A stretch of DNA of 64,000 nt. It comes from Palleronia pelagia. Its GTDB lineage: Bacteria; Pseudomonadota; Alphaproteobacteria; Rhodobacterales; Rhodobacteraceae. This document shows, piece by piece, positions 3,228-40,860 of this stretch; position 1 is the stretch's first letter, and each line of letters opens with the position of its first letter. The DNA is taken from positions 310,001 to 374,000 of the forward strand of contig NZ_FOCM01000001.1 of NCBI RefSeq assembly GCF_900110115.1, written 5' to 3'. A program made the position numbers and the translations under genes. The notes beneath the pieces are model-generated. The model searched no databases, had not been told where the DNA came from, and was given only the letters and a program-made list of their open reading frames with translations.

Positions 3228-4031
3228 TCACAGGCGCGACAGGAAGCTGCGCAGGATTTTCTCCAGTTTCGCGGCGCCGAGGGGGGCCATTTCCTTGGTG
3301 TGTTCGTGGCCGATCTTCTCGGCCGACAGGCCCGCCGCCATGTTCGTGATCGCGCTGATCGCAGCGACTCGTAACCCCAGGAAGCGTGCGAGGATCACCT
3401 CGGGCACCGTGGACATGCCCACCGCATCCGCTCCGAGGATCCGCAGGGCCCGGATCTCCGCGGGCGTCTCGAAGCTGGGACCGGAGTACCAGGCATAGAC
3501 GCCTTCGTGCAGATGCGTGTCGGTATCCTTGGCCGCGTCGCGCAGCGCCGCGCGCCAGTCGGGATCGTGGGCATCGGTCATCGGTACGAACCGTGCGTCG
3601 GTCGGCTCGCCGATCAGCGGGTTCAGGCCCGAGAAATTGATGTGGTCGCTCAGCAGCATGGCGCTGCCCGTGGGCATTTCCGGGTCGAGCGACCCGGCCG
3701 CGTTGGTGGCGATCAGCCCCTCGGCCCCCAGCGCCTTCAAAACCTCAAGCGGCAGGCGCATGGCCGACGGGTCGCCCTTCTCGTAGTAATGCGCGCGCCC
3801 GCCCAGCACCGCGATGCGCTGGCCCTCCAACTCGCCCACCACCAGCTTGGGGTTGTGGCCCGACACGCCTGCGTGCGGAAAGCCCGGCAGCTGGTCGTAG
3901 GGGATGGCGACGCCGTCCACCTGCTCGGCCAGGTGACCCAGCCCCGAGCCCAGGATCAGGCCCAGCCGCACGGGCGCGTCGCCCGCCCGGTCGCGGATGA
4001 AACGGGCGAGGTCGTCTGCGGCGCGGGACAT
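3228..4031 (-). CDS. punA: Purine nucleoside phosphorylase
   Basis: A 267-residue PNP of the trimeric (PNP-I, mammalian-like) type. Visible motifs are GSGLG near residue 28, GRAHYYEKG in the phosphate-binding region, TNAAGSL, FETPAEIR, GMSTVPE and ITNMAAG near the end. It phosphorolyses purine ribo- and deoxyribonucleosides to base plus pentose 1-phosphate in the cytoplasm. It begins one base after the stop of the last permease gene of the nucleoside ABC importer, so import and cleavage of nucleosides look like one operon (binding protein, ATPase, two permeases, PNP). The Asn in TNMAAG suggests preference for 6-oxopurines (guanosine, inosine). Confidence 0.93.
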   Translation of the reverse strand: MSRAADDLARFIRDRAGDAPVRLGLILGSGLGHLAEQVDGVAIPYDQLPGFPHAGVSGHNPKLVVGELEGQRIAVLGGRAHYYEKGDPSAMRLPLEVLKALGAEGLIATNAAGSLDPEMPTGSAMLLSDHINFSGLNPLIGEPTDARFVPMTDAHDPDWRAALRDAAKDTDTHLHEGVYAWYSGPSFETPAEIRALRILGADAVGMSTVPEVILARFLGLRVAAISAITNMAAGLSAEKIGHEHTKEMAPLGAAKLEKILRSFLSRL

Positions 4032-4032
4032 T

Positions 4033-4998
4033 TCAGCGCTCCTTCACGTAGGGTTGCCCACCGGCGCGGGGCGGGACGGCCTTTCCGACGAAGCCCGCCA
4101 GGATCACCACGGTGAGGATGTAGGGCAGGGCCAGGACGAAGGCGTTGGGGATCTCGAACAGCACGAGGTCGATCGACGAATAGCGGTTGGAAATGGCCTG
4201 AAGCAGACCGAAGAGCAGGCACGCCCCCAGCGCGTACCACGGCCGCCATTTGGCGAAGATCAGCGCGGCCAGCGCGATGTAGCCGCGCCCGGCGCTCATG
4301 TTCTGGGTGAAGCTCGCAGCCAGCCCGGTGGCGAGGAAGCTGCCCGACAGCCCGCATAGCACGCCGCAGATCGCCACGGCGGCGTAGCGCAGCCGCACGA
4401 CGCTGACGCCGGCCGTGTCCACCGCGCCGGGGTTCTCGCCCACCGCGCGAAGGCGCAATCCAAACCGGGTGCGGAACAGGACGTACCAGGTCAGCGGCAC
4501 GGTCAGCAGGCCCACATAGACGAGGATCGTGTGACCCGACAGCGCATCGGCATAAAGCGGACCGATGAAGGGCACGCCCGACAGCGCCTCGGCGAAGGGG
4601 AGTTCGATCGGCGAGAAGCGCGCGCCCCCCGACAGCTGCGGCGTGCGCCCGCCCTGCGAGAACCAGTCCTGCGCGATCAGCACCGTCATGCCCGCCGCGA
4701 GAAAGTTGATCGCCACGCCCGATATCAGCTGGTCGCCCCGGAAGGTGATCGAGGCCAGCCCGTGGATCATCGAGAACACCATCGAGGACGCGATGCCGGC
4801 CAGGAGCCCCAGCCAGACCGACCCGGTCAGCGCGGCGACGGCGGCCGAGAAGAAGGCCGAGATCAGGATCTTGCCCTCGAGCCCGATGTCGAACACGCCC
4901 GCCCGCTCGGAGAACAGCCCGGCCAGGCAGGCGAACAGCAGCGGCGTCGCCAGCCGGATCGACGAATCGAGGATCTGGATCAGGTCGAGATAGTTCAT
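4033..4998 (-). CDS. Nucleoside-type ABC transporter permease (YufQ/NupQ-like)
   Basis: 321 residues, about eight or nine membrane segments, with the conserved features of the second BMP-associated permease: LFSERAGVFDIGLEGKILIS near residue 28, ITFRGDQLISGVAINFLAAG and the cytoplasmic coupling region FGLRLRAVGENPGAVDTAGV. The reading frame stays open far upstream, but the start at 4998 overlaps the stop of the first permease gene by four bases (ATGA) and begins exactly where homologues do. With the other permease, ATPase and lipoprotein-like binding protein it forms an importer of the Bacillus NupNOPQ / Treponema PnrA class. Confidence 0.92.
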   Translation of the reverse strand: MNYLDLIQILDSSIRLATPLLFACLAGLFSERAGVFDIGLEGKILISAFFSAAVAALTGSVWLGLLAGIASSMVFSMIHGLASITFRGDQLISGVAINFLAAGMTVLIAQDWFSQGGRTPQLSGGARFSPIELPFAEALSGVPFIGPLYADALSGHTILVYVGLLTVPLTWYVLFRTRFGLRLRAVGENPGAVDTAGVSVVRLRYAAVAICGVLCGLSGSFLATGLAASFTQNMSAGRGYIALAALIFAKWRPWYALGACLLFGLLQAISNRYSSIDLVLFEIPNAFVLALPYILTVVILAGFVGKAVPPRAGGQPYVKER

Positions 4999-6103
4999 TC
5001 CGCGGGCACTCCGGGTTTGTCGGGTTGGCGCCGGAAGCGCAGGAAGGCCTTCTCGAGAGGGCTGCGCACCATGCCGTCCAGCGCGCCGGTGAACAGGATG
5101 ACCAGCGCCTGGATCACCACGATCATCTCGCGCGGGATCGAGGTTTCGAACTCCAGCTCGGCGCCGCCCTGGTACAGCGCGCCGAACAGGACCGCTGCGA
5201 TGAACACGCCCACCGGGTGCGAGCGCCCCATGAGCGCCACGGCGATGCCCACGAAGCCCGCGCCCAGCACGTTGTCCTGCAACAGCCGCTCCTGCTCGCC
5301 CATCACGGCATTGATGGCCATGAGGCCGGCCAGGGCGCCCGAGATCAGCATCGTGATCATGGTGATCCGCACCGGGTTGATGCCGGCATAGACGGCGGCC
5401 TTGTCGGAGTGGCCGAAGGCGCGGATCTCGTATCCCAGCCTGGTGCGCCACAGCAGAAGCCACAGGCCCCAGCAGGCCAGCAGGGCCACGATGAAGCTGA
5501 CATTCATCGGCGTGCGGGCGAAGTCGATGCCGATGGCCCCCAACACCTCGCGCGCCGTCGGCAGGTGCGAACCCTCGACGAAACGGGCGGATTCGGGCGC
5601 CATTCCGGGGGCCTTCAGCGCGCTCACCAGCAGGTAGACCAGCAGCGCCGAGGCGATGAAGTTGAACATGATCGTGGTGATGACGATATGGCTGCCCCGC
5701 GTCGCCTGCAGGTAGGCGGGGATGGCGGCCCAGGCCGCGCCGAAAAGGCCACCGCCAAGGATCGCCACCGGCAGCGCGATCAGCCAGTGCGGCCACGGCA
5801 CCATCAGGCAGACCAGCGCGACGCCCAGGCTGCCCAGCTGCGCCTGGCCTTCACCGCCGATGTTGAACAGCCGTGCGTGGAAGGCGATGGCGACGGCCAG
5901 GCCCGTGAAGATGAAGTTGGTGGCGTAGAACAGCGTGTAGCCCCAGCCATAGGTCGAGCCCACGGCGCCGTTCACCATGATCGCCAGCGCCTCGAACGGG
6001 TCCTGGCCGATCAGCGCGACCACGAGGCCCGAGACGATCAGGGCGAGGATCAGGTTGATCAACGGGATCAGGGCCACGTCGGCCCACTTGGGAAGCTTGT
6101 CCA

Positions 6104-6104
<1 letters not shown>
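4995..6104 (-). CDS. Nucleoside-type ABC transporter permease (YufP/NupP-like)
   Basis: A 369-residue integral membrane protein. It contains GLAVAIAFHARLFNIGGEGQ (about residue 72), a hallmark of the permease partners of BMP-family binding proteins, and the coupling motif TRLGYEIRAFGHSDKAAVYAG. It forms a heterodimer with the following permease. Its start overlaps the stop of the ATPase gene by one base (TGATG), and its end overlaps the next gene by four, so the transporter genes are translationally coupled. Substrates of the class are purine and pyrimidine nucleosides, which fits the adjacent PNP. Confidence 0.92.
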
Positions 6105-7690
<1,586 letters not shown>

Positions 7691-7720
7691 GGAGCCCACC
7701 CTTCGGGGATTTAGTAAAAC

Positions 7721-7748
7721 GGCCCCCGCGCGGGGTCGCGCGGGGGCC
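7721..7748 (-). terminator. Hairpin between binding-protein and ATPase genes
   Basis: A perfect 12-bp stem (7721-7732 with 7737-7748, GGCCCCCGCGCG and its complement) with a four-base loop. On the minus strand it follows the BMP-type binding protein gene by about 18 bases and is trailed by GTTTTAC, so it looks like a partially read-through intrinsic terminator or a 3' mRNA-stabilising stem. Such elements usually set binding protein above membrane components. Confidence 0.7.
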
Positions 7749-7766
7749 GGTGTCGTCAGGTCGCGA

Positions 7767-8771
<1,005 letters not shown>

Positions 8772-8954
8772 TGGGGGTGTCTCCCTTGTGTTGTTCTTTG
8801 GCCAAGGGCTTTGGCGCCCATGGCCCGGGGTCGCCCGAGGGCGCCCGCGACAGCCGCGATTAAGGGCCGTGCGGACCCGAGAATCAAGACGGGATTGTGG
8901 ATGAATCGCCGCGCGACGGGGCACCTGCCGTGGATTGAGGCAGATGACGTTTCG

Positions 8955-9371
8955 TCATGGGACCAGATCCCGGCCCAGCACCAGCGCATCCACCGACCCC
9001 GCTGCAGGATCGCGGTAGTAGCCACGGCGCAGGCCCAGTTGCTCATAGCCCATGGCGTCGTAAAGCGCCCGGGCCGCCGCGTTGGTCTCGGCCACCTCGA
9101 GAAAGACGCGCGTTGCACCGTATGCGCGCACGTCATCGTGAAACGCGTCGAGACAGGCGCGGCCCAGGCCCTTGCGGCGGTGGTCGGGATCGGTGGCGAT
9201 GGTCAGCAGCTCGGCCTCGTCCAGCACGACACGCCCCAGGGCGAAAGCATGGTCCCGTGTGACCAGGACGGCGCCCGGCTGGGCCAGCAGGTCGCGGAAG
9301 CCCTCGGCCGGGAACGGCGGCGGCACGGTGATGGCGCGGGCGTGGAGCCGGGCCAGGTCCTCGGGCGTCAT
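8955..9371 (-). CDS. rimI: Ribosomal protein-type N-acetyltransferase RimI
   Basis: A 138-residue GNAT acetyltransferase. The acetyl-CoA pyrophosphate loop is visible as DPDHRRKGLGRACLDAF, followed by VFLEVAETNAAARALYDAMGYEQLGLRRGYY, the typical RimI end. The family acetylates the N-terminal alanine of ribosomal protein S18 and probably other proteins. The start codon overlaps the stop of tsaB by four bases, and the tsaB-rimI pair is widespread in bacteria, which supports the assignment. Confidence 0.9.
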   Translation of the reverse strand: MTPEDLARLHARAITVPPPFPAEGFRDLLAQPGAVLVTRDHAFALGRVVLDEAELLTIATDPDHRRKGLGRACLDAFHDDVRAYGATRVFLEVAETNAAARALYDAMGYEQLGLRRGYYRDPAAGSVDALVLGRDLVP

Positions 9372-10036
9372 GCGACCGGGGGCTGGGCGCGGGCGGGGGC
9401 GGCGTCGGGCGGGCGCAGGTAAAGCGGCGCGGGCCGGTCGGGCGCGGTGTCGCCGCCCATGTGCCGCCGCTCGGCGATCTCGCAGATACGCGGCGCGATG
9501 GCGTCGAGGTCGGTTTCCAGCGCGGGCAGGCCCAGTGTGGGGCCGACTTGCAGCGCCAGGGGGCCGACCGCCTGCATCCCGGCGCCCGCCGCCAGGTCGC
9601 CCGGCGGATCGGAAGGGTCGATAAGGCGGGCAGGGCCGTCCGGCGCGCCGTCGCGATAGGCGCGCACATGGGCCATGTCGCGCGGCGCGGGCAGGCAGAC
9701 CAGCGCGTCGCCCGAGGTGGCCGACAGCGCGACGTCGAAGCTCGACACACCATGGCAGGGGCGGTCGAGGCCCAGGGCAAGCCCGCGCGCCGCCGCGACC
9801 CCCACGCGCAGGCCGGTGAAGTTGCCGGGACCGATGCCCACCGCCAGCGCATCAAGGTCGCCCCAGCAAAGGCCCGCCTGCGACAGCAGCTCTTCCAGCA
9901 TCGGGATCAGCCGTTCGGCCTGTCCCCGCGCCATGTCCTCCTGTGCCAGCGCCACGAGCGACCCGCCCGAACGCAAAGCGGCCGCGCAGTGCGCGGCCGA
10001 TGTGTCGAAGGCAAGAAGCGTCGGTGCGTCAGGCAA
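9368..10036 (-). CDS. tsaB: tRNA threonylcarbamoyladenosine biosynthesis protein TsaB
   Basis: 222 residues of the ASKHA fold: LLAFDTSAAHCAAAL at the start, and LDALAVGIGPGNFTGLRVGVAAARGLALGLDRP (about 58-90), the TsaB signature. With TsaD, TsaE and TsaC it makes the t6A37 modification on ANN-decoding tRNAs; TsaB is the non-catalytic partner of TsaD. It overlaps the upstream Nfu gene by eight bases and the downstream rimI by four, so these three are one translational unit. Confidence 0.92.
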   Translation of the reverse strand: MPDAPTLLAFDTSAAHCAAALRSGGSLVALAQEDMARGQAERLIPMLEELLSQAGLCWGDLDALAVGIGPGNFTGLRVGVAAARGLALGLDRPCHGVSSFDVALSATSGDALVCLPAPRDMAHVRAYRDGAPDGPARLIDPSDPPGDLAAGAGMQAVGPLALQVGPTLGLPALETDLDAIAPRICEIAERRHMGGDTAPDRPAPLYLRPPDAAPARAQPPVA

Positions 10037-10589
10037 CCGGCCGCACCTCGATAACCTCGGGGATGTAATGGCGCAGCAGGTTCTCGATCCCCATCTTCAG
10101 CGTCAGGGTCGAGGACGGGCAGCCGGCGCAGGCGCCCTGCATGTGCAGGTAGACAACGCCACGCTCGAACCCGTGGAAGGTGATGTCGCCGCCGTCCTGC
10201 GCCACGGCCGGGCGCACGCGGGTGTCCAGCAGTTCCTTGATCTGGACGACGATCTCACCGTCGGGGCCTTCGTGGTCGGCATGGCCGCCCGACTGGTCGG
10301 CGCCGCCCGCCATGACCGGCTGGCCGGACTGGAAGTGCTCCATGATCGCACCCAGGATCGCGGGCTTGATATGGTCCCATTCGGTCCCATCCTGCTTGGT
10401 CACGGTGACGAAGTCGTTGCCCAGGAACACGCCCGTGGTGCCGTCGACGGCGAAGATGCGCGTCGCCAGCGGCGAGGTGTCGGCGGTTTCGGCCGAGGGA
10501 AAGTCGGCCGTGCCGGTCTCGAGCACGGTCTGGCCGGGCAGGAACTTCAGCGTGGCGGGGTTGGGCGTGGATTCGGTCTGGATGAACAT
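10029..10589 (-). CDS. Nfu-type iron-sulfur cluster scaffold/carrier
   Basis: 186 residues: an Nfu N-terminal domain (FIQTESTPNPATLKFLPG at the start, as in mitochondrial NFU1 and alphaproteobacterial NifU-like proteins), then the C-terminal NifU domain with the cluster-binding CAGC motif (Cys154 and Cys157). It carries [4Fe-4S] clusters to apo-proteins. The ATG at 10589 has an ideal AAGGAAG Shine-Dalgarno and begins at the conserved N-terminus, although the frame is open 17 codons further upstream. It overlaps tsaB by eight bases. Confidence 0.93.
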   Translation of the reverse strand: MFIQTESTPNPATLKFLPGQTVLETGTADFPSAETADTSPLATRIFAVDGTTGVFLGNDFVTVTKQDGTEWDHIKPAILGAIMEHFQSGQPVMAGGADQSGGHADHEGPDGEIVVQIKELLDTRVRPAVAQDGGDITFHGFERGVVYLHMQGACAGCPSSTLTLKMGIENLLRHYIPEVIEVRPVA

Positions 10590-30716: not shown

Positions 30717-30756
30717 CGCCCCATCCCGCATGGCCCGACCCCAAGACGAGGACGCC

Positions 30757-31557
30757 ATGCCGGACGACTTCACCCCACCCGATACCGCCCTGACACGCCT
30801 GCGCGAAAGCGTGCCTCTGGTCCATTGCATCACGAACTACGTGGCCATGGACCTGGCCGCCAACGTGCTGCTGGCCGCCGGCGGCTCGCCCGCCATGGTC
30901 CACGCCGAGGAGGAGGTCGCCGATTTCGCGCCCATCGCCGGGGCGTTGACGATCAATACCGGCACATTGTCCCCCCCATGGCTGCGCGCGATGGAGGCGG
31001 CGGCGGATGCCGCCAACGGCGCGGGCGTGCCCTGGGTGCTGGATCCGGTAGCGAATTTCGCGACGCCCTACCGCCGGGATGCGTCCCAGCGGTTGCTTCA
31101 GCGCAAGCCCGCAATCCTGCGCGGCAACGCGTCCGAGATCCTTGCGCTGGCCGGGCAGTCCGGGGCGGGCAAGGGCGCCGATAGCGGCGACACCGTCGAG
31201 GCGGCCGAGGACGCGGCGCGCGCGCTGGCGCGGCAGACCGGCGCCGTCGTCGCGGTGACCGGGCCGGTGGATTTCGTGACCGATGACACCCGCGCCGCGC
31301 GCGTGGCGGGCGGATCGGACCGGATGCCAAAGGTGACGGCCATGGGCTGTTCGCAGGCCGGGCTGATGGGCGGGTTCGCCGCCGTGGTGCCGCCGCTCGA
31401 CGCGGCGGTCGCGGCGCTCGTGCTGTTCGCCGAGGCGGGCACGCAGGGCGAACGCGCCTCCCAGGGGCCCGGCAGCTTCCGCGTGGCTTTTCTCGATGCG
31501 CTGGCGGGGATCACGCCCGAGGAATTGAGCAACGCCGCGCATCTCACATGGCTGTAA
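30757..31557 (+). CDS. thiM: Hydroxyethylthiazole kinase
   Basis: 266 residues from the ATG at 30757 (GAGGA upstream). Motifs: PLVHCITNYVAMDLAANVLLAAGGSPAM at the start, INTGTLSPPW, VLDPVANFAT, ILRGNASEILAL and the phosphate-binding loop TAMGCSQAGLMGGFAA with the catalytic-type cysteine. It phosphorylates 5-(2-hydroxyethyl)-4-methylthiazole for salvage. First gene after the TPP riboswitch; it overlaps thiE by ten bases. Biosynthetic thiC/thiG are not in the window, so this is a salvage cassette. Confidence 0.94.
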   Translation: MPDDFTPPDTALTRLRESVPLVHCITNYVAMDLAANVLLAAGGSPAMVHAEEEVADFAPIAGALTINTGTLSPPWLRAMEAAADAANGAGVPWVLDPVANFATPYRRDASQRLLQRKPAILRGNASEILALAGQSGAGKGADSGDTVEAAEDAARALARQTGAVVAVTGPVDFVTDDTRAARVAGGSDRMPKVTAMGCSQAGLMGGFAAVVPPLDAAVAALVLFAEAGTQGERASQGPGSFRVAFLDALAGITPEELSNAAHLTWL

Positions 31558-32195
31558 GGGCCGATCAACTGCGGCGATGCCTGCGGCTCTACCTCGTCAC
31601 CGATCCGGGGTTGTGCCCGGCGTCCGAACTGCCCGCCCGGGTGCGTGCGGCGGTGGATGGCGGCGTGACGATGGTGCAGTTGCGCGACAAGGACGCCGAC
31701 ACCGCCAGCCGCGTGCGGACGGCCAGCGCCATACGCGCCGCGCTCAAGGGGACCGGCGTTCCGCTGATCGTCAACGACGATCCTGCGGCGGCGATCGCCG
31801 CCGGGGCGGACGGCGTGCATATCGGGCAGGGGGACGGCGACCCGGTCGCGGTGCGGCGCCGGATCGGCCCGGACCGGCTGCTGGGCCTGTCCTGCGAAAC
31901 GCCCGCACACGTGGCGTCCGTGGCCGATAGCGGTGCCGATCACCTCGGGCTCGGGCCCGTCATGGCAACGTCAACCAAGCCGAAACACGCCGCGCCGCTG
32001 GGCTTCGACGGCCTTGCCGCCATGGCCCGCGCCACGGGCTTGCCCAAGGTCGCCATCGGCGGGTTGAAGGCACCCCATGCGGGCCTTGTGCGCGACGCGG
32101 GATGCGACGGCATGGCGGTTGTGTCCGCCATCCTTGGCGCGCCCGATCCCCGCGCCGCCGCACGCGACATCATCCGAAACTGGAGAGAAGCATGA
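31548..32195 (+). CDS. thiE: Thiamine-phosphate synthase
   Basis: 215 residues, TIM-barrel enzyme joining HMP-pyrophosphate and thiazole phosphate. Motifs: LVTDPGL, VQLRDKDADT (pyrophosphate/Mg site), LIVNDDPAAAIAAGADGVHIGQGD, GLSCETPAHV, GADHLGLGPVMATSTKP and VAIGGL. Starts ten bases inside thiM and ends with an ATGA overlap into thiD, so the three enzymes are produced together. Slightly longer N-terminus than E. coli ThiE is not apparent; length is normal. Confidence 0.94.
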   Translation: MAVRADQLRRCLRLYLVTDPGLCPASELPARVRAAVDGGVTMVQLRDKDADTASRVRTASAIRAALKGTGVPLIVNDDPAAAIAAGADGVHIGQGDGDPVAVRRRIGPDRLLGLSCETPAHVASVADSGADHLGLGPVMATSTKPKHAAPLGFDGLAAMARATGLPKVAIGGLKAPHAGLVRDAGCDGMAVVSAILGAPDPRAAARDIIRNWREA

Positions 32196-33013
32196 CCCGA
32201 AAGATCCCCAACGTCCTGTCCATCGCCGGATCGGACCCGTCCGGGGGGGCCGGGATACAGGCGGACCTGAAGGCGATTTCGGCCAATGGCGCCTATGCCA
32301 TGGCCGCGCTGACAGCGCTGACGGCCCAGAACACCCAAGGGGTCAGCGGCATCCATCCGGTGCCGCCGGAGTTCGTGGCGGCACAGATCGACGCGGTGTT
32401 CGACGATATCGCCGTCGACGCGGTGAAGGTGGGCATGATCTGCAACGCCGGCATCGCCGCGCGGGTGGCCGACCGGCTGCGCGCGCGGGCGGCGGAGCGG
32501 ATCGTGCTCGACCCCGTCATGATCGCCAAGGGAGGCGCCCCGCTGCTCGAACCCGACGCGGTGCGCGTGGTGCGTGACGACCTGTTGCCGCTGGCACTGA
32601 TGCTGACGCCGAACCTGCCCGAGGCGGCGCATCTGCTGGACCGGGGCGTGGCGCGAACCGAGTCCGAGGTCGAGGCGCAGGGTCGCGCGCTGCTGGCGCT
32701 GGGGCCACGATACGTACTGATGAAGGGCGGTCACGGTCAGGGGGCGGACAGCGCCGACTGCCTGGTCTCGGCCGACGGGGCCGTCTGGTCCCGCGCGCCG
32801 CGCATCGACACCGCCAATACCCACGGCACGGGGTGTTCGTTGTCCTCTGCGTTGGCCGCGCAGCTCGCGCGGGGCCTGTCACCCGCCGAGGCCTTTCGCG
32901 CGGCGAAGGATTTCGTGACGGCAGCGATCCGCGCCGCGGACCGGCTGGACGTGGGGCAGGGGCACGGGCCAACCCACCACTTCGCAACGCTCTGGGATGC
33001 GGCGGGAGCTTGA
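32192..33013 (+). CDS. thiD: Hydroxymethylpyrimidine (phosphate) kinase
   Basis: 273 residues, ribokinase fold. Motifs: VLSIAGSDPSGGAGIQADLK at the start, VKVGMICN, VLDPVMIAKGGAPLL, LTPNLPEAAHLL and the anion-hole loop TANTHGTGCSLSSALAA. It phosphorylates HMP twice to give HMP-pyrophosphate for ThiE. The ATG overlaps the thiE stop (ATGA). Last gene of the riboswitch-controlled unit; it converges on the methylthioribose-type ABC operon. Confidence 0.94.
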   Translation: MTRKIPNVLSIAGSDPSGGAGIQADLKAISANGAYAMAALTALTAQNTQGVSGIHPVPPEFVAAQIDAVFDDIAVDAVKVGMICNAGIAARVADRLRARAAERIVLDPVMIAKGGAPLLEPDAVRVVRDDLLPLALMLTPNLPEAAHLLDRGVARTESEVEAQGRALLALGPRYVLMKGGHGQGADSADCLVSADGAVWSRAPRIDTANTHGTGCSLSSALAAQLARGLSPAEAFRAAKDFVTAAIRAADRLDVGQGHGPTHHFATLWDAAGA

Positions 33014-33122: not shown

Positions 33123-34163
33123 TCAGCGTTGCGGCAGCGGGATCCAGTCCGCCGTGGCCACGTCCGCATGTTGGAACTGGGGCATTTTCGCGCCCAGGTC
33201 CTCCATGTTGCGGATGTCCTCGTCGTTGAGAAAGCTCTGGGTGATCAGGGTCGGCGGCACGATGACCGATGCGCCTGGATCCTCGCCCGCCAGCATCAGG
33301 GCGAGCGCCCGTACCGAAACTTCGCCGACCACGGCCGGGTTGGTCGCCACCGTGGCTTTCCAGGCGCTGCCGGACTCGCGCATGAGCGCGATGTCGGCAG
33401 TCGAGATGTCGGCGGAATAGATGCTCATGTCGCCGCTCAGGCCCAGCTCGTCCGTGGCGATCTTCACGCCCTTCGCGAACTCGTTATAGGGTGCGAAAAA
33501 GACCGTGATGCCGGGATTGGCCTGCAACGCCGCGCGGGCCTGGTTCGCGTTCGAGTTGGCAATGGGGTTGTCCAGCGTGCCGATGCGCGCAGCTTCGGTG
33601 ATGCCGCTATTGGCTTCTTTCACCTCTTCCCACGCGACATGGCGGCGGTCGAGCGGCGCGATCCCCGGAACGTAGACATAGCCGGCGGTGAAGCTGTCGC
33701 CGTTGTCCTCGATGGCCTGTTCCAAGGCCAGCTTGCCCAAAAGGTAATCCGACTGCTCGATCTGCGGGATGGCATCGTTTTCCACGTCCACGTCGAAGGC
33801 CACGACCTTGATGCCGGCGTCGACCGCGCGCTGGGCGGCCTCGCGCATGGATTCGGTGAGGCCGTGCTGGATGATGATACCGTCCACGCCCAGCGCGATG
33901 GCCTGGTCCACCATGTCGGCCTGCAACGCCGCATCCTGGCGGCTGTCCAGCACCCGCAGGTTCACGCCAAGTGCCTCGGCCTGTGTCTCGACGCCCGAAA
34001 GGTATGCCTGGAAGAAATCGCCGGTCGACAGGTATCGCACCAGCGCGATGGTCACGTCCTCCGGGGTGTCGAAGGGTGCGGGCGCGTCCTGTGCCAGGGC
34101 GGTGCCCCCGCCCAGCCCCAGGCTGGCGGCCCCGGCAAGGGCCAGAAGATGACGTCTCAGCAT
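33123..34163 (-). CDS. Ribose-type ABC transporter substrate-binding protein, probably for methylthioribose or 5-deoxyribose
   Basis: 346 residues with a signal peptide (ALA-QD near residue 24). Periplasmic-binding-protein type I sequence: VTIALVRYLSTGDFFQAYLSG, VDQAIALGVDGIIIQHGLTE, AGIKVVAFDVDVEN, ITVFFAPYNEFAKGVKIA and the C-terminal strands. It belongs with the RbsB-like sugar binders. It is the last gene of a minus-strand operon (ATPase, permease, binding protein) divergent from mtnK-mtnA-sorC-aldolase, so the ligand is inferred to be 5-methylthioribose or 5-deoxyribose. AGGGAGG precedes the ATG at 34163. Confidence 0.85.
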   Translation of the reverse strand: MLRRHLLALAGAASLGLGGGTALAQDAPAPFDTPEDVTIALVRYLSTGDFFQAYLSGVETQAEALGVNLRVLDSRQDAALQADMVDQAIALGVDGIIIQHGLTESMREAAQRAVDAGIKVVAFDVDVENDAIPQIEQSDYLLGKLALEQAIEDNGDSFTAGYVYVPGIAPLDRRHVAWEEVKEANSGITEAARIGTLDNPIANSNANQARAALQANPGITVFFAPYNEFAKGVKIATDELGLSGDMSIYSADISTADIALMRESGSAWKATVATNPAVVGEVSVRALALMLAGEDPGASVIVPPTLITQSFLNDEDIRNMEDLGAKMPQFQHADVATADWIPLPQR

Positions 34164-34188
34164 GTTGGTTCCTCCCTGTCGCTGATGG

Positions 34189-35199
34189 TCACTGCCCGGC
34201 ACGCCCCCGGCGCGCGGACAGGTAGAAGGTGAAGACGAGGGCCGCGACCAGCACGGCGCCCTTGACGAAATCCTGCGTATAGTAGGGGGCGTTCATCATC
34301 GTCATGCCCTGCAAGAGGATTCCGACGAAGAGCGCGCCCATGGCCGTCCCGAACGCGTTGGGGCGCGCCGCACCCAGCACGGCAAATCCGATGAGCGCGG
34401 CGGCCACGCTGTCGAGCAGAAGGTTGTTGCCGCTGGCGATGTCGCCTCGTCCCAGCCGCGCGGCAAGAAGAATGCCTCCCACCGATGCGGTGACGCCCGA
34501 GATCATGTAGGCGGCGATCCTGTAGCGCTCGACCGGCGTCCCCACCAGCGCCGCGGCCCGCGCGTTCGACCCGATTGCGTACATGAGCCGACCGTGCCGG
34601 GTGAAACCGAGAAACAGCCAGATCAGCACCGCGATGACCACGAAGACCACCACCGGCATCGGCAGCAGCCGGTCGATGAACAGATCGAAGCGGTGCCGGC
34701 CCAACCACAAGAAAGCGGGCGAGAAGGTGCCTTCGGCTACCCGCCCGTCCGAGAGGGTCATACCCGTGGCGATGGAGTTGCCCTGCGTCGGGATCCGCTG
34801 CAGCCCGATCAACAGGAACATCATGCCCAGCGTGGCGAGCAGGTCCGGGACGCGGCATTTCACGATCAGGATCCCGTTTATGAAGCCCACGCCCGCACCC
34901 ATGAGCAGGCACAGGGCCACGGCGACGATGGCGGGATGTTCGAGGATTACCATCGAATAGGCCGACAGCATCAGCGCCGAGGTTGCGACCGCCCCGATGG
35001 AGAGGTCGAACCCGCCCACTACCAGCGTGCAGGTGACCCCCAGCGCGAGGATGCCGGTTATCGCCACCGATTGCAGCACGAAGGCGGCTGAGAGCGGTCC
35101 GAAGAAGCCGGGGGCCGCCACGCTGAAATAGACGAGCAGCCCGGCCAGCAACGCGAGAAAGCCGTAGCGGATTGCGAGGTCCAGCAGCCGGTCGGTCAT
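34189..35199 (-). CDS. Ribose-type ABC transporter permease
   Basis: 336 residues, RbsC family: ITGILALGVTCTLVVGGFDLSIGAVATSALM near residue 50, KCRVPDLLATLGMMFLLIGLQRI, HGRLMYAIGSNARAAALVGTPVERYRI and the last helices with LQGMTMMNAPYYTQDFVKGAVLV. About ten membrane segments. Start overlaps the ATPase stop by four bases. It should form a homodimeric pore fed by the two-domain ATPase. Substrate inferred from the divergent mtn genes. Confidence 0.9.
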   Translation of the reverse strand: MTDRLLDLAIRYGFLALLAGLLVYFSVAAPGFFGPLSAAFVLQSVAITGILALGVTCTLVVGGFDLSIGAVATSALMLSAYSMVILEHPAIVAVALCLLMGAGVGFINGILIVKCRVPDLLATLGMMFLLIGLQRIPTQGNSIATGMTLSDGRVAEGTFSPAFLWLGRHRFDLFIDRLLPMPVVVFVVIAVLIWLFLGFTRHGRLMYAIGSNARAAALVGTPVERYRIAAYMISGVTASVGGILLAARLGRGDIASGNNLLLDSVAAALIGFAVLGAARPNAFGTAMGALFVGILLQGMTMMNAPYYTQDFVKGAVLVAALVFTFYLSARRGRAGQ

Positions 35200-36695
35200 G
35201 CGCGCACCTCGGCACCCGAGATGTCTGAAACCAGCGCCGATAGGTCGATTTGCCCGGCACGATGCTCGGACACCATTCTGCCCTCGTGCAGCACGACGAC
35301 GCGGTCGGCGATTTCCAGCGCCTCGTCGATCTCGGCCAGAAAGACGAGCGTCGCGCGCCCCTTGGCCGTATCGCGGATATGACGGCCGATATCGCGGCGC
35401 GCGCCGATATCGACGCCCTGGAAAGGCTCGTCCAGCAGCAAAACCCTCGCGTCGCGTAGCAGCCAGCGCGCGATCATCACCTTCTGCTGGTTGCCGCCTG
35501 ACAGGGTATCGATCCCATCGCGCGCGGATTGGCAGACGATGCCCAGCCGGTCGATCATGTCGTCGGCACTGGCGACTTGGGCGCGGCCGCTCAGGAGCGG
35601 CCCGGCTCCGAAAGCGCCAAGGAACGGCAGGGTCATGTTGTCGGCGATGTCGAAGGCCGGGATGACGGCGTTCGATCCGCGATCCTTGGGGGACAGGTGC
35701 ACGCCACGGGCCTTCGCCTCGCCGGCACCGTCCGGGCGGTATGCCGCGCCGTCTATGCGCATGCGACCGGCCACGGGGGTGCGCAGGCCGAACAGAATCT
35801 CGGCCAGACGGCTTTTCCCGCTGCCCAGCAGTCCGACCATCGCCACGACTTCGCCGTCATGTGCGACCAGGTCGAACGCGGGCGCATGGTGCCATAATCG
35901 CAGGCCATTCAGTTCCAGGACCGGCGCACCCGGCGCCGCGGGGGCGATATCCACATCCGTCATGCGGTGACCCAGCATCGCCGTCACGGCCGCCTCGTAA
36001 TCCAGCGGTGTGGTGTCGAACCGGCCCGAGATTGCCCCGTCGCGCATGACCACGATGCGGTCGGCAATGCGGCGGATATCGGACATTCGGTGCGAGATAT
36101 ACAGGATCGCGACGCCTTGGTCGCGCAGCCGGTCGATCAGGGCGAACAGGCGGTCGGCCTCGGTCGCCGACAATGAAGATGTGGGTTCATCGAGGATCAA
36201 GACTTCGGGCGCCCGGGCCATGGCGCGGGCGATCGCGATCATCTGGCGATCGGCCACCGACAGTTCGGAGACGCGCGCGCGCAGGTCGATCTCCAACCCC
36301 ATGCGTGCCGCGACCTCGGCCGCGGCGGCACGAAGACGCCTCTCGCGCACGAACAGGGCGCCCCCACCCACGAGGCGGTCCAGCATCAGGTTATTCGCCA
36401 CATCCAGGTCAGAGATCACACCGTCATCGATGGACTGGTGCACCGTGACAACGCCGCGCTTGATCGCGTCGGCCGCGTCCGCCGGGGCAAAGGGCCGACC
36501 GTCCAGCCGCATTGTGCCGCCGTCCGAACCGTGGTGGCCGCAGATCACTTTGACCAGCGTCGACTTGCCTGCGCCATTGGCGCCCATCAGCACCGTGACG
36601 GTGCCGGGCGCCAGCGCGATGTCGATGCCCCTGAGCACGTGGTTCCTTCCGAACGATTTCTGCAAACCGTTCACGTCCAGTACGTTGGCCTCCAA
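35196..36695 (-). CDS. Ribose-type ABC transporter ATP-binding protein (two-domain), TTG start
   Basis: 499 residues. Domain 1: Walker A GANGAGKST, signature LSVADRQMIAIARA, Walker B VLILDEPTSSLS. Domain 2: GLLGSGKSR (lysine retained), SGGNQQKVMIARWLL, VLLLDEPFQGVD. I place the start at a TTG (36695) because GGGAGGA lies five bases upstream and MEANVLDVNGLQKSFGRNHVL then begins at the family start. The only upstream ATG (36746) has no Shine-Dalgarno and would lie upstream of the transcription start predicted from the TTGACA in the palindrome. First gene of the importer operon. Confidence 0.87.
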   Translation of the reverse strand: MEANVLDVNGLQKSFGRNHVLRGIDIALAPGTVTVLMGANGAGKSTLVKVICGHHGSDGGTMRLDGRPFAPADAADAIKRGVVTVHQSIDDGVISDLDVANNLMLDRLVGGGALFVRERRLRAAAAEVAARMGLEIDLRARVSELSVADRQMIAIARAMARAPEVLILDEPTSSLSATEADRLFALIDRLRDQGVAILYISHRMSDIRRIADRIVVMRDGAISGRFDTTPLDYEAAVTAMLGHRMTDVDIAPAAPGAPVLELNGLRLWHHAPAFDLVAHDGEVVAMVGLLGSGKSRLAEILFGLRTPVAGRMRIDGAAYRPDGAGEAKARGVHLSPKDRGSNAVIPAFDIADNMTLPFLGAFGAGPLLSGRAQVASADDMIDRLGIVCQSARDGIDTLSGGNQQKVMIARWLLRDARVLLLDEPFQGVDIGARRDIGRHIRDTAKGRATLVFLAEIDEALEIADRVVVLHEGRMVSEHRAGQIDLSALVSDISGAEVRA

Positions 36696-36700
36696 ACCGG

Positions 36701-36707
36701 TCCTCCC
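36701..36707 (-). promoter_or_regulatory. Shine-Dalgarno that sets the TTG start of the ABC ATPase
   Basis: On the minus strand GGGAGGA is followed by five bases and TTG at 36695-36693. The spacing is ideal, and no such element precedes the upstream ATG at 36746. This decides the start in favour of the rare TTG. Confidence 0.7.
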
Positions 36708-36747
36708 AACCGAAGCAAGGGCGACGGTAGGCGCAGCCTGATACATC

Positions 36748-36764
36748 TGTCAAATGATTTGACA
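36748..36764. promoter_or_regulatory. Palindromic operator carrying -35 boxes of both divergent operons
   Basis: TGTCAAATGATTTGACA is a perfect inverted repeat around a single centre base. It reads TTGACA at each end on opposite strands. With a 17-base spacer each faces a CTA-beginning hexamer: CTACTC (36782-36787) for the plus-strand mtnK operon and CTACCG for the minus-strand importer, close to the alphaproteobacterial sigma-70 pattern. A repressor here would shut both arms; the SorC-family protein encoded at 39191-40186 is the obvious candidate. Confidence 0.72.
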
Positions 36765-36830
36765 TAAGTATATTTCGGCGGCTACTCCGAAGATGGTGAC
36801 ATTGGTCCGCGCGCATCTTGGGAGGATACG

Positions 36831-38090
36831 ATGACCGCTGACACGGCCTACAAGGCATTGGATGCGAGTAGCCTGCCGTCCCGGCTGGGCACGCTGCCTG
36901 AGCTGTCGGAACGGGTTGGCCCGGACCCCGATGAGTGGGAGGTTGTCGAGGTCGGGGATGGAAACCTGAACCTAGTTTTCATCGTGTCCGGCCCGGCGGG
37001 ACGCGTGATCGTCAAGCAGGCGCTTCCCTATGTCCGGCTGGTGGGCGACAGCTGGCCGCTGCCTCTCTATCGCGCGTATTTCGAGCATCATGCCCTCACG
37101 CGGCAGGCCGGGCGCGATGCCGGCGCGGTGCCGGAGATCTTCCATTTCGACCGCGAACAGGCGCTGATCGTCATGGAGTTCCTGTCGCCCCACGTGATCC
37201 TGCGACACAAGCTGATCGCGGGCGAACGGGTGACGGGGCTCGCGCAGACACTGGGCCGATTCTGCTCGCGCACCGCGTTTCGCGGATCGGAGCTGTCCAT
37301 GGCCAGCAGTGACAAGAAGGCGGACGTGGCGCTCTTCGCGGGCAACGTGGCAATCCCCGCCATCACCGAGGCTCTGGTGTTCACCGATCCCTATTTCGAC
37401 GCGGAGATGAACAATCACACGCCGGGGCTTGAGCCGGTGATCGCCGGCCTGCGGGACGATGTGGCGCTGAAGGTGAGGGTACAACAGGCGCTTCAGCGTT
37501 TCGTGTCAAACACCGAGACGATGCTGCACGGCGATCTGCATTCGGGCTCGATCATGGCAACCGGGGACGAGGCGCGGATCATCGACCCGGAATTCGCGCA
37601 ATACGGCCCCATGGGCTTCGATATCGGCATGCTGTTCGCCAACTTCCTCATGGCCTATTTCAGTCAGCCTGCCCACCGGGGCGAAGATCTCGAGGAATAT
37701 CAGGACTGGATCCTTGACGTGATCGAGACCACGGCGGCGGTTTTCGAGGAAGAGTTCCGCAACCTCTGGAAGACCGAGCGCACCGGAATCCTCTATCCCG
37801 CTTCGCTTTTCGAAGATCAGGGTCAGGACAGCACGCCCGCCTGTGACGCGGTGCTGACCGGGCTTTGGCGAGACGCCTGGGCCGTGTGCGGGATCGAGAT
37901 GCACCGCCGGTGCCTGTCCTTGGCGCATAACGCCGATTTCGAAGGCATCGAGGATCCCGCCCGGCGCGCGCCGCTTGAGGCGCGCAACCTGGCCATGGGC
38001 GCGCGGTTGATCCATACGGCAGAAGATATCGGATCGGTGGCCGAGGTGACGGCCATGGCGCGCGGGTTCAACGGAAAGGATGTCATATGA
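36831..38090 (+). CDS. mtnK: S-methyl-5-thioribose kinase
   Basis: 419 residues, ATP-grasp-like/protein-kinase-fold sugar kinase. The glycine loop [13 protein letters not shown] lies near residue 40. The catalytic loop HGDLHSGS gives Asp235, and [16 protein letters not shown] gives Asp252 and Glu254, the same spacing as Asp233, Asp250 and Glu252 of the Bacillus enzyme. It phosphorylates methylthioribose (and probably 5-deoxyribose) at C1. GGGAGGA precedes the ATG. It overlaps mtnA by four bases and is the first gene of the plus arm of the divergent locus. Confidence 0.94.
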
Positions 38091-39190
38091 AGATCGACGG
38101 CACGCATTACCGATCGCTGTGGTGGGACGCTGACGCCCGGACCCTCAAGATAATCGACCAGCGTTGGCTGCCCCATGATTTCCGCGTCGCCGATGTGACG
38201 ACGATGCAGGATTTCGCCGATGCCATTTACCAGATGCGGGTCCGCGGCGCGCCGTTGATCGGGGCGACGGCGGCCTATGGCATGGCCCGTGCCATGGACG
38301 AGGATCCCGGCGACGCGAACATGGACGCGGCCTGGACGTTCCTGGAAAAGACCCGGCCGACGGCGATCAATCTGCGCTGGGCGCTGGATCGCTGCCGCGC
38401 GGCGCTGCGCCCGCTGGCGCCCGCCGATCGGGCCGCGGCCGCCCTGAGGCTGGCGCACGAGATCGCCGACGAGGATGTGGAGATCAATCGCCGCATCGGT
38501 GCCCACGGGCTCGAAATCATCCGCGAGATCGCGGCGCGCAAGCCTGCGGGCGAGCCGGTGCGCCTGCTGACCCATTGCAACGCCGGCTGGATAGCCACGG
38601 TGGATTGGGGCACGGCCACCAGCCCGATGTATCAGGCCCATGACGCCGGCATCCCGCTGCATGTCTGGGTGGACGAGACCCGGCCCCGCAACCAGGGTGC
38701 GCTGACGGCGTGGGAGCTGGGCAGCCACGGCGTGGCCCACAACTACATCACCGATAACGCCGGTGGTCACCTGATGCAGCACGGAATGGTGGACATGGTC
38801 ATCACCGGCACCGACCGCACCACGCGGCGCGGCGACGTGTGCAACAAGATCGGAACCTACCTCAAGGCGCTCGCGGCCCATGACAACGGGGTGCCGTTCT
38901 ACGTTGCGCTGCCGTCGCCGACCATCGACTGGACGGTCAGCGACGGTGTCGCCGAGATCCCTATCGAGGAGCGCGATGGCGCGGAGGTCAGCGATATCCA
39001 GGGGCGGACCGAGGATGGCGGTATCGGCACGGTCCGTGTCACCCCCGACGGTACCGGGGCGGGCAACCCGGCGTTTGATGTGACGCCCAGCCGGTTGGTG
39101 ACCGGTCTGATCACCGAGCGCGGCGTCTGCGCGGCCACCGAGGAGGGCTTGGCCGAGTTGTTCCCCGATCTCGCGCGGAAAGCGGGCTAG
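38087..39190 (+). CDS. mtnA: S-methyl-5-thioribose-1-phosphate isomerase
   Basis: 367 residues of the eIF2B-alpha-like isomerase family. [16 protein letters not shown] (about 50), [18 protein letters not shown] with catalytic Cys164, and [21 protein letters not shown] with catalytic Asp243 match the Bacillus Cys160/Asp240 pair. It converts methylthioribose 1-phosphate (or 5-deoxyribose 1-phosphate) to the ribulose form. Coupled to mtnK by ATGA and followed directly by the SorC-type regulator gene. Later methionine-salvage genes (mtnB, C, D, E) are not in the window. Confidence 0.95.
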
Positions 39191-40186
39191 GTGGCGCCGG
39201 GGACGACGGCTCGGCCGCGACAGGCGATGTCGGATACCGCCCGCCCCATGCCCCGCGACGATGCCGCGCTGATCGAGGCAGCCTGGCTGTATTACCACGA
39301 CGGACTGAACCAGAACGAAATTGCCGCGCGGCTGGGGATCAGTCGGGCGTCGGTCGTGAACTACCTGGCCGAGGCCCGGTCCCGGGGATGGGTACGTCTG
39401 CACCTGGACAGCGACGTGTTTCGCGGCCACCGGCTGGCGCGGGCGTTGTGCACCGCGTACGGGCTGGCGGACGCGCTGGTGGTTCCGGATGCCGAGAGCT
39501 CCAAGGGTGACACGGCGCGCGTGACGCAGGCGGCGGCCGATTGGTTGCCTCGCCTCCTGGCGCCCGGCGACCGGCTGGGCGTCTCGTGGGGGGCGACGGT
39601 CTACCAGATGGCAAACCGTGTTCCGCAGACCCCGATCCCCGACTTGACGGTGGTTCAACTCCTGGGATCGCGCCCCGCGGCCTTCGGGTTCGCCGCCGAG
39701 GCTTGCACCGCGGTGCTGGCGCAAAGGCTGAGCGGCGACTGCATCAACTTGCACGTGCCCTTGATCCTGTCGAGCAAGGGCCTGCGCGATGCGCTCTGCG
39801 CCGAGCCGGCCGTGAAACGCCAGCTCGACGCGTTGGCCACTTGCAACAAGACGGTTCTCGCTTGCGGGACCTGCGATGCGGACGCCCATGTGGTCCAGAG
39901 CGGCATCCTGGACCCGGCCGGGATGGAGGCGCAGCGCGCCCGAGGCGCCGTGGGCGTGATCTGCGGCCGGCTTATCGACGCGCGAGGGCAGGCCGTCGAA
40001 TGCGAGGTCGAGGAGCGGATGATCGGTGTTTCACTGGAGCAGATGAAAGGGAAGGACATGGCCCTTTTGGTGGCAGCGGGTCCGCGCCGCGCGGCGCCGG
40101 CCGCCGCCGCGCTGAAAGGTGGTTTCGCGACGCACCTTGTCACCGGCACCGCTCTTGCCGAAACCCTTCTTGAGTCCGCCGAATGA
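39191..40186 (+). CDS. SorC-family sugar-phosphate-responsive regulator
   Basis: Up to 331 residues. An N-terminal helix-turn-helix (WLYYHDGLNQNEIAARLGISRASVVNYLAEAR, about residues 35-65) precedes the SorC sugar-binding domain: GDRLGVSWGATVYQMA, TVVQLLGSRPAAFGF and CGTCDADAHVVQSGIL. SorC regulators bind phosphorylated sugars. Its place between mtnA and the aldolase suggests the ligand is a pathway phosphate ester and the target the palindrome at 36748-36764. Start uncertain: the GTG at 39191 has GGAAAG eight bases upstream and follows the mtnA stop at once; ATGs at 39227 and 39248 are alternatives. Overlaps the aldolase gene by four bases. Confidence 0.87.
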   Translation: MAPGTTARPRQAMSDTARPMPRDDAALIEAAWLYYHDGLNQNEIAARLGISRASVVNYLAEARSRGWVRLHLDSDVFRGHRLARALCTAYGLADALVVPDAESSKGDTARVTQAAADWLPRLLAPGDRLGVSWGATVYQMANRVPQTPIPDLTVVQLLGSRPAAFGFAAEACTAVLAQRLSGDCINLHVPLILSSKGLRDALCAEPAVKRQLDALATCNKTVLACGTCDADAHVVQSGILDPAGMEAQRARGAVGVICGRLIDARGQAVECEVEERMIGVSLEQMKGKDMALLVAAGPRRAAPAAAALKGGFATHLVTGTALAETLLESAE

Positions 40187-40860
40187 GCAATGCACCTTTG
40201 CCCGATACCACGGCCACCCGGCAGGCCCTGATCGACGCCTGCCGCGCCATGAACGCGCGTCGCCTGAACCAGGGAACGTCGGGCAACATATCGGCCCGGG
40301 TCGCGGAGGGCGTGCTCATAACGCCATCGGGCGTGGCCTATGACGCCCTGGCGCCCGACATGATGGTGACGATTCCCTTGGCGGGACCACCGGATGAAAC
40401 CGGGCCGAAGCCCTCCTCGGAATGGCCATTCCACCAGGCGCTGCACAACGCACGTCCCGACATGCCAGTGGTTTTGCACGCCCATCCGCCCTATTGCAGT
40501 GTCCTGGCGGCGCAACGGCGGTCGATCCCGGCCTGTCACTACATGGTCGCGGCCTTCGGAGGCGATGACGTGCCCTTGGTCGACTACGCGCTCTTTGGAA
40601 GCCAAGCCTTGTGCGACAACATGGCGGCGGTCATGACCGATCGACATGGCTGCCTCATGGCCAATCACGGCGCGACCGTCTTGGGCGAAACCGTCGATAA
40701 GGCCCTGTGGCGGCTGGAAGAGCTCGAGGCTTTGGCGCGGACCTTCCTGTTCACCAGCATTGGTGGTGCGCCGCAAATCCTGACCGCCGACGAGATGGCC
40801 GAGGTGCATGTCGCCTTCCGAAGCTACGGGCCGCGCACGGACCCTCCTACCGAGGCGTAG
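40183..40860 (+). CDS. Class II aldolase (FucA-like), probable 5-deoxyribulose/methylthioribulose-1-phosphate aldolase
   Basis: 225 residues of the aldolase II/adducin family. NQGTSGNISARV and ITPSGVAYDAL bind phosphate; catalytic Glu80 is in PSSEWPFH; zinc ligands are His99 and His101 (LHAHPPYCS) and His162 (MANHGA). The order and spacing follow fuculose-1-phosphate aldolase rather than the dehydratase MtnB. Next to mtnK and mtnA it fits the aldolase of the DHAP shunt, cleaving methylthioribulose 1-phosphate or 5-deoxyribulose 1-phosphate to DHAP plus an aldehyde. Start overlaps the SorC gene stop (ATGA). Substrate is inferred. Confidence 0.85.
   Translation: MSNAPLPDTTATRQALIDACRAMNARRLNQGTSGNISARVAEGVLITPSGVAYDALAPDMMVTIPLAGPPDETGPKPSSEWPFHQALHNARPDMPVVLHAHPPYCSVLAAQRRSIPACHYMVAAFGGDDVPLVDYALFGSQALCDNMAAVMTDRHGCLMANHGATVLGETVDKALWRLEELEALARTFLFTSIGGAPQILTADEMAEVHVAFRSYGPRTDPPTEA

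Follow-up and report, generated by a model that had tools for sequence, protein, structure and literature searches.

S-adenosylmethionine chemistry yields 5-methylthioribose (MTR) and 5-deoxyribose (5dR) as waste. In E. coli, the dihydroxyacetone phosphate (DHAP) shunt is encoded by an operon of mtnK, mtnA, ald2, and a permease gene. E. coli carrying the shunt grows on 5dR with a putative permease in the operon (PMC10986504, PMC12632272), depends on the Pfs nucleosidase (PMC10986504), and represses the shunt through MtnR (YjhU), which the paper describing it calls a DeoR-family regulator (PMC12632272). The E. coli mtnK and mtnA genes look alphaproteobacterial (PMC3228920), and MTR transporters are mentioned in an account in which the E. 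coli S88 operon ends in a transporter gene (PMC6302742). Here we analyze a locus of the alphaproteobacterium Palleronia pelagia that combines mtnK, mtnA, and a class II aldolase gene with an ATP-binding cassette (ABC) importer and a SorC-type regulator. It lies in a stretch of 64,000 nucleotides, hereafter the window (G000:C11:310001-374000), from a host genome of 3.85 Mb in 25 contigs that is 99.96% complete.

The closest described systems each share part of this set. The E. coli system shares the three enzymes, and it too has a transporter gene and a regulator of family PF04198; however, its transporter is GRP/ureide-permease-like rather than an ABC importer, and yjhU is placed downstream and convergent, whereas here the regulator gene sits between mtnA and the aldolase gene. 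The R. rubrum and R. palustris shunt (MtnP-MtnA-Ald2) shares the MtnA and class II aldolase steps, and MtnP is also encoded in the host genome; that shunt begins at endogenous 5'-methylthioadenosine (MTA) via MtnP, and the main text describing it never uses the word "transport" (PMC5893883). The Drd clusters (DrdK-DrdI-DrdA, Beaudoin 2018) likewise join a kinase, an isomerase, and a class II aldolase. They span six phyla, with sugar transporter genes in four drawn clusters and a fucose mutarotase homologue in one, and exogenous 5dR use was suggested for them; the main text does not mention "regulator" (PMC6079011). Their aldolase 6btd is more distant from ours (104 bits) than FucA is (166 bits). 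Enterobacteria and Bacillus cereus have a predicted ABC transporter for MTR, MtrACB/MtnXYZ, that is found together with mtnK and mtnA; it goes with the complete set of methionine salvage genes and with MetJ or S-box control, where our locus has an aldolase and a SorC regulator instead (PMC3228920, PMC4239095). The first-pass annotation of the window regarded an importer with a dedicated regulator as new to the shunt. This does not hold, given the permease of the E. coli operon, its repressor MtnR (YjhU, PMC12632272), a PF04198 protein, and the transporter-bearing clusters already drawn (PMC6079011). Every element of the locus is already known, and its interest is in the complete and widely kept set; in the open literature, with subscription papers mostly outside our scope, we found no description of an MTR-type ABC importer, an aldolase shunt, and SorC control as one system.

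From the genes, their layout and conservation, the co-occurrence, a shared palindrome, and the nearest solved structure, all observed here, we infer that the locus is very probably a regulated version of the DHAP shunt for scavenging MTR or 5dR, 5-deoxypentoses released by other cells; its ligand, reactions, direction of regulation, and use for carbon, sulfur, or both are predictions. Free sugar would be taken up by the importer, phosphorylated at C1 by MtnK, and isomerised to the 1-phosphoketose by MtnA. The FucA/Ald2-type aldolase would then split 5-methylthioribulose-1-phosphate or 5-deoxyribulose-1-phosphate into DHAP and (methylthio)acetaldehyde. Acting on the palindrome between the two operons, the SorC-type regulator would keep both repressed until a phosphorylated intermediate builds up. 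MtnA and the aldolase would also take the cell's own MTR-1-phosphate from MtnP, so that MtnK and the importer would be the import-specific addition. Excretion has been reported for 5dR in a cyanobacterium (PMC8102628) and for MTR in E. coli (PMC3228920). Found in roughly one in ten of the order genomes that we sampled (28 or 29 of 292), a dedicated importer-pathway-regulator unit would make MTR and 5dR a traded source of carbon and possibly of sulfur. It would also give MtnK a simple role, as kinase for imported sugar, in genomes where the MTA nucleosidase MtnN is not found.

Gene layout, importer, and palindrome

Using an open reading frame (ORF) check and family profile searches, we confirmed the coordinates and families of all seven genes called earlier. 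They form two divergent strings, one for the substrate-binding protein (SBP), permease, and ATPase (33123-36695, minus strand) and the other of mtnK, mtnA, the SorC-type regulator gene, and the class II aldolase gene (36831-40860, plus strand). The importer is of the CUT2 (ribose) type, with a periplasmic SBP (33123-34202; PF13407), a permease (34189-35199; PF02653, 127.6 bits) whose neighbouring counterparts in relatives are 71-92% identical, and an ATPase with two ABC domains (35196-36695; PF00005 (ABC_tran) in two stretches). Facing it are the MTR (5dR) kinase gene mtnK (36831-38090; TIGR01767, 449.6 bits, cut-off 275), the 5-methylthioribose-1-phosphate isomerase gene mtnA (38087-39190; TIGR00512, 420.1 bits, cut-off 279), and the genes of a SorC/DeoR-type sugar-sensing regulator (39227-40186; PF04198, 183.6 bits) and a FucA/Ald2-type class II aldolase (40183-40860; PF00596, 182.3 bits). 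MtnK and MtnA are well over the NCBIfam equivalog cut-offs; the importer subunits, the regulator, and the aldolase match general families and are under the specific cut-offs listed.

The four plus-strand genes had been described as coupled throughout. The ATGA overlaps between mtnK and mtnA and between the regulator and aldolase genes bear this out, while mtnA abuts the regulator gene if the latter starts at the alternative GTG at 39191 and lies 36 bp from it with the ATG at 39227. On the minus strand, the permease and ATPase genes overlap by 4 bp. An overlap between the SBP and permease genes requires the SBP start at GTG 34202; the internal ATG at 34163 is the likelier true start and leaves a gap. 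For the ATPase, the ORF list has ATG 36746, but TTG 36695, which is preceded by GGGAGGA, is the probable start.

The best solved match of the SBP, by both sequence and structure, is PDB entry 4ry8 (212 bits, versus 37 bits for E. coli RbsB). This entry is TLET_1677, the SBP of a 5-methylthioribose transporter from Thermotoga lettingae; a literature search for a paper on it found none. The SBP is thus nearer to a solved MTR binder than to ribose binders. We rejected a plain ribose importer, as RbsB is far more distant than 4ry8 and three RbsB pocket residues are substituted in all 40 of the 40 aligned SBPs. For the importer ligand, MTR appears likeliest and 5dR next likeliest.

To place the locus among its relatives, we used the best 80 of 107 MtnK-encoding stretches from a scan of GTDB genomes, which are close relatives rather than independent samples. 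Counts come from tblastn tables and genome searches; an ORF chooser that sometimes took antisense frames was used just for representative neighbours, and loci with too little flank were excluded, hence the differing denominators. Among the matches listed, from which very near genomes are possibly omitted, the nearest MtnK loci are those of Primorskyibacter, Marivita, and Pseudoponticoccus (77% identity), which point to the order Rhodobacterales, and some loci are metagenome-assembled genomes labelled Granulosicoccaceae, Immundisolibacterales, or Gammaproteobacteria. Among relatives, identity is higher for the SBP (70-92%) than for MtnK (56-77%). A survey for the five-part neighbourhood, proposed earlier, found most of it widely kept, with a divergent ATPase at 67 of 74 loci, the SBP at 62 of 69, mtnA at 70 of 74, and a SorC-type regulator at 54 of 64. 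The exception is the FucA-like aldolase, present at just 24 of 64 loci; another 24 have a fusion of aldolase and short-chain dehydrogenase, and 16 have neither. The fusion (for example L033:12446-14503 and L072:12478-14547) is of the RhaD/PRK08324 type, going by two members scanned. One of the 24 fusion-bearing loci (L065) has no importer.

A palindrome, TGTCAAATGATTTGACA, is found at 36748-36764, between the ATPase gene and mtnK. The sequence TGTCAANNNNNTTGACA occurs once in the host genome, at this locus, in a search with the N5 form (the N6 form was not searched genome-wide). In the 71 of 80 loci that had both matches, the gap between the ATPase gene and mtnK was searched for TGTCAA and TTGACA separated by a spacer of 3 to 7. 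An exact TGTCAA-N5/6-TTGACA was present in 46 of these 71 relatives, all with a spacer of 5 or 6, and 67 had at most one mismatch, compared with 0 exact and 4 one-mismatch hits in 1420 mononucleotide shuffles. The palindrome was not found in the four mtnA loci without mtnK or the two importer-less mtnK loci that we examined, and it is absent from the E. coli shunt stretch. It is kept upstream of the ATPase gene in one genome, G192 (L089). The palindrome could be an operator, a back-to-back pair of -35 elements, or both, common to the two operons. The regulator and E. coli YjhU/MtnR, itself a PF04198 protein, share 35% identity over 311 residues, and like MtnR the regulator is linked to the shunt, being within reach of it in 54 of 64 loci. 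We propose the SorC-type regulator as a candidate repressor of both operons.

Enzymes and predicted fate of the sugar

MtnK is 41% identical to the MtnK of the E. coli DHAP shunt, and MtnA is 62% identical to E. coli MtnA. The mtnA gene of the locus is the sole TIGR00512 match in the host genome. Three host proteins match PF01048: a purine-nucleoside phosphorylase (window 3228-4031), MtnP (523 bits, cut-off 437), and an AMP nucleosidase. MtnP makes MTR-1-phosphate directly, so the cell's own MTA needs no MtnK. Replacement of nucleosidase and kinase by MtnP has been described (PMC10986504). Since there is a single mtnA match and MtnP is encoded elsewhere in the genome, MtnA and the aldolase should also serve endogenous MTA, and the locus is probably not for imported sugar alone.

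The genes mtnB-E had all been called missing. For mtnB and mtnD this proved correct: a genome-wide PF00596 search gave just this aldolase and an OtnC-type decarboxylase, and PF03079, the acireductone dioxygenase family of MtnD, had 0 matches genome-wide. The mtnC and mtnE genes are not in the locus, and no genome-wide search for either was made. With neither mtnB nor mtnD in the genome, we rejected a canonical methionine salvage locus. The further claim that methionine recovery is not the aim fails, as Ald2 in R. palustris feeds methanethiol and allows growth on MTA sulfur (PMC5893883); because the known shunt can feed methionine, missing mtnB-E genes are no proof against its recovery.

It is in fact quite possible that the same import and cleavage serve mainly to gain sulfur, with methylthioacetaldehyde going to methanethiol and methionine as with R. 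palustris Ald2, and DHAP a bonus. With MTA as the only source of sulfur, growth of an R. palustris rlp1 ald2 double mutant is poor and is restored by ald2 in trans (PMC5893883), and the likeness of the SBP to an MTR binder fits this use. However, the locus has no recognised downstream sulfur gene, the E. coli shunt is a carbon pathway (PMC10986504), and a SorC-type sugar regulator, not a sulfur regulator, fits carbon use.

The aldolase scores 165.6 bits against 1fua (FucA) and 103.7 bits against 6btd (B. thuringiensis DrdA), and its score of 170.7 on the FucA equivalog is under the cut-off of 400.25. In a joint alignment it is 39% identical to E. coli Ald2 and 38% to FucA, which are 58% identical to each other. 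At what we take to be the zinc, phosphate, and catalytic positions of FucA, it aligns with the same residues (H92, H94, H155, E73, Y113, Y209, N29, S71, and S72), and it shares with Ald2 an S at the T43 position. A D-erythro 1-phosphoketose fits the stereochemistry of FucA-type enzymes. In a tree, E. coli Ald2 and FucA cluster together, separate from the alphaproteobacterial aldolases, and because of this grouping the tree cannot tell the substrate. Cleavage of the imported sugar through MtnK, MtnA, and the aldolase, as first predicted, is supported by sequence, neighbourhood, and co-occurrence. An improbable variant is that another 5-modified pentose passes through an unknown 1-phosphoketose pathway with promiscuous MtnK and MtnA homologues. 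The aldolase specificity is not set by sequence, and MtnK and sugar phosphate aldolases have been described as promiscuous (PMC6079011); against this, MtnK and MtnA are far over their equivalog cut-offs and the nearest solved relative of the SBP binds MTR.

Co-occurrence of the kinase and the importer

We searched 292 genomes of the order, drawn by the tool, counting MtnK over its cut-off, the SBP at E up to 1e-60, and MtnN at E up to 1e-20. MtnK was found in 29 genomes and the SBP in 28, with both in 27 (Fisher p ~1e-34, shared ancestry uncorrected). In all 27 co-carriers, and hence in 27 of the 28 SBP genomes, the SBP gene and mtnK are on the same contig, on opposite strands, 2.65-2.96 kb apart. 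MtnA is present in 28 of the 29 MtnK genomes and in 70 of 292 overall, and MtnP in 258. MtnN was found in 0 of 292 genomes, while the identical search was positive in 6 of 14 control genomes. With MtnN not found and MtnP this common, MtnK looks dedicated to imported free sugar. Uptake of MTR or 5dR, as originally suggested, is thus well supported by the likeness of the SBP to an MTR SBP, the pairing of MtnK with the importer in 27 of 29 genomes, and the presence of MtnP where MtnN is not found.

It is very unlikely that the locus performs endogenous salvage only, with an importer for another sugar as a chance neighbour of the shunt. In favour of this explanation, importers of the ribose type are common, MtnP is encoded in the genome, and the sole mtnA match is at the locus. 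However, the co-occurrence in 27 of 29 genomes is always in divergent arrangement, the closest solved relative of the SBP is an MTR binder, and we found no MtnN that could supply MtnK internally. In addition, 42 genomes of the order have MtnA without MtnK, including both same-genus genomes of the sample, and in the four of these that we viewed (L105, L106, L111, and L112) neither mtnK nor this importer adjoins mtnA; thus, MtnA by itself is associated with internal salvage and MtnK with the importer. A class-wide draw of 385 genomes contained the SBP (E up to 1e-60) in 5, the host included. Two of these (L107 and L108; SBP 49% identical) have a single operon of mtnK-ATPase-permease-SBP-mtnA-aldolase, which argues against a chance neighbourhood of importer and mtnK, and the other two (L109 and L110) have the divergent layout.

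Several observations weigh against a scavenging shunt or limit how far the counts can be taken. The SBP and TLET_1677 are 36-37% identical, and by sequence the aldolase is equally close to Ald2 and FucA, which does not fix its aldehyde. The palindrome contains two divergent TTGACA hexamers and is possibly just the -35 elements of two promoters; it has two or three mismatches in L024, L029, L031, and L058, and was not found in L107, L108, or L110 despite their importer (other layout or lineage). The MtnK-seeded set is biased to close relatives. Within it, 7 of 74 loci have no divergent importer ATPase and 4 of 74 no mtnA, and among the 64 with 6 kb downstream available, 10 have no SorC nearby and 16 no recognised aldolase. 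In the order sample, we did not count 12 more genomes whose MtnK matches are all sub-threshold, nor a kinase-like frame beside mtnA that matches MtnK weakly (32 bits; G083:C33, near 8647-10155). Because no more than 7 first-look candidates were scored for each genome in the SBP search, a carrier may have been missed. G237 has MtnK without SBP or MtnA. G290 has MtnK without the importer; there, transketolase N and C, a RuBisCO-like protein, and an aldolase face mtnK-mtnA (L091). G192 has the importer without mtnK or mtnA (L089, G192:C1:4564000-4582000), possibly as a relic or a differently used set. In the host, no MtnN is among the PF01048 matches, and other nucleosidases, e.g. PF01156, were not searched.

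Extra genes in related loci

For 66 loci, 8.5 kb of sequence upstream of mtnK was available; in 22 of them, genes for a RuBisCO-like protein and for a split transketolase lie beyond the SBP gene (e.g. L033:1564-5200), following or facing it. Likewise, 22 of 66 loci have a FucU/RbsD-like mutarotase gene on the importer side, some of them together with the RuBisCO-like and transketolase genes. One locus counted for these upstream extra genes (L016) has no SBP. The best solved match of the RuBisCO-like protein is 3qfw (204 bits), with MtnW enolases at 128 bits. A possible model for it is R. rubrum DeepYkr, which rearranges 5-methylthioribulose-1-phosphate (PMC5893883). In L050 (14508-16667), L052, L054, and L057 the locus is followed by genes for a deaminase and a nucleoside phosphorylase, which in L060 and L065 are found upstream instead; the NCBIfam matches of this deaminase, among them 5'-deoxyadenosine and MTA deaminases, are all below cut-off. 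The RuBisCO-like, transketolase, mutarotase, deaminase, and phosphorylase neighbours fit MTR/5dR chemistry, and none is in the locus of the window.

Finally, whole 5'-deoxynucleosides (MTA, 5'-deoxyadenosine) are highly unlikely as the cargo in place of free sugars: although 5'-deoxynucleosides support growth of shunt-bearing E. coli (PMC10986504) and six loci carry the deaminase and phosphorylase, imported MTA would enter via MtnP without need for MtnK, MtnN was not found in the host or the 292 order genomes, the nearest structure is an MTR SBP, and the mutarotase-like genes in 22 of 66 loci fit free sugar.

Tentatively, the importer-MtnK unit of many marine Alphaproteobacteria may be the entry to a larger, branched catabolism of MTR and 5dR. 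In a second, aldolase-free route, the RuBisCO-like protein would convert the 1-phosphoketose to 1-(methylthio)- or 1-deoxy-xylulose 5-phosphate, which transketolase would then split. The window itself has the aldolase branch only. We rejected two host genes as parts of such a system. The sole RuBisCO-family match is on another contig, beside a gene that appears sugar-acid kinase-like from its translation (L092), and the sole FucU/RbsD match, also on another contig, is 38% identical to the locus type; we could link neither to the locus. By comparison of lists by eye, MtnP occurs with MtnA in 65 of 292 order genomes and without it in 193. These 193 genomes would have no MtnA for their MTR-1-phosphate and may excrete MTR. 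If the branched system is real, a scavenging trade becomes plausible between such genomes and the roughly one tenth that carry the importer.

Other genes in and near these loci also concern nucleosides or border the importer. In G237, a protein with a nucleoside hydrolase domain (PF01156, 60.9 bits) is encoded one gene from mtnK on the opposite strand (L090, G237:C8:35500-54000) and could supply free sugar internally. The window contains a second ABC importer, which from its translations is of the nucleoside (BMP-like) type, with a terminal purine-nucleoside phosphorylase gene (3228-8924); it may feed 5'-deoxynucleosides or ordinary nucleosides. Lastly, thiM-thiE-thiD-like genes (window 30730-33013; thiD by profile, thiM and thiE from their translations) reach right up to the end of the MTR-type importer.

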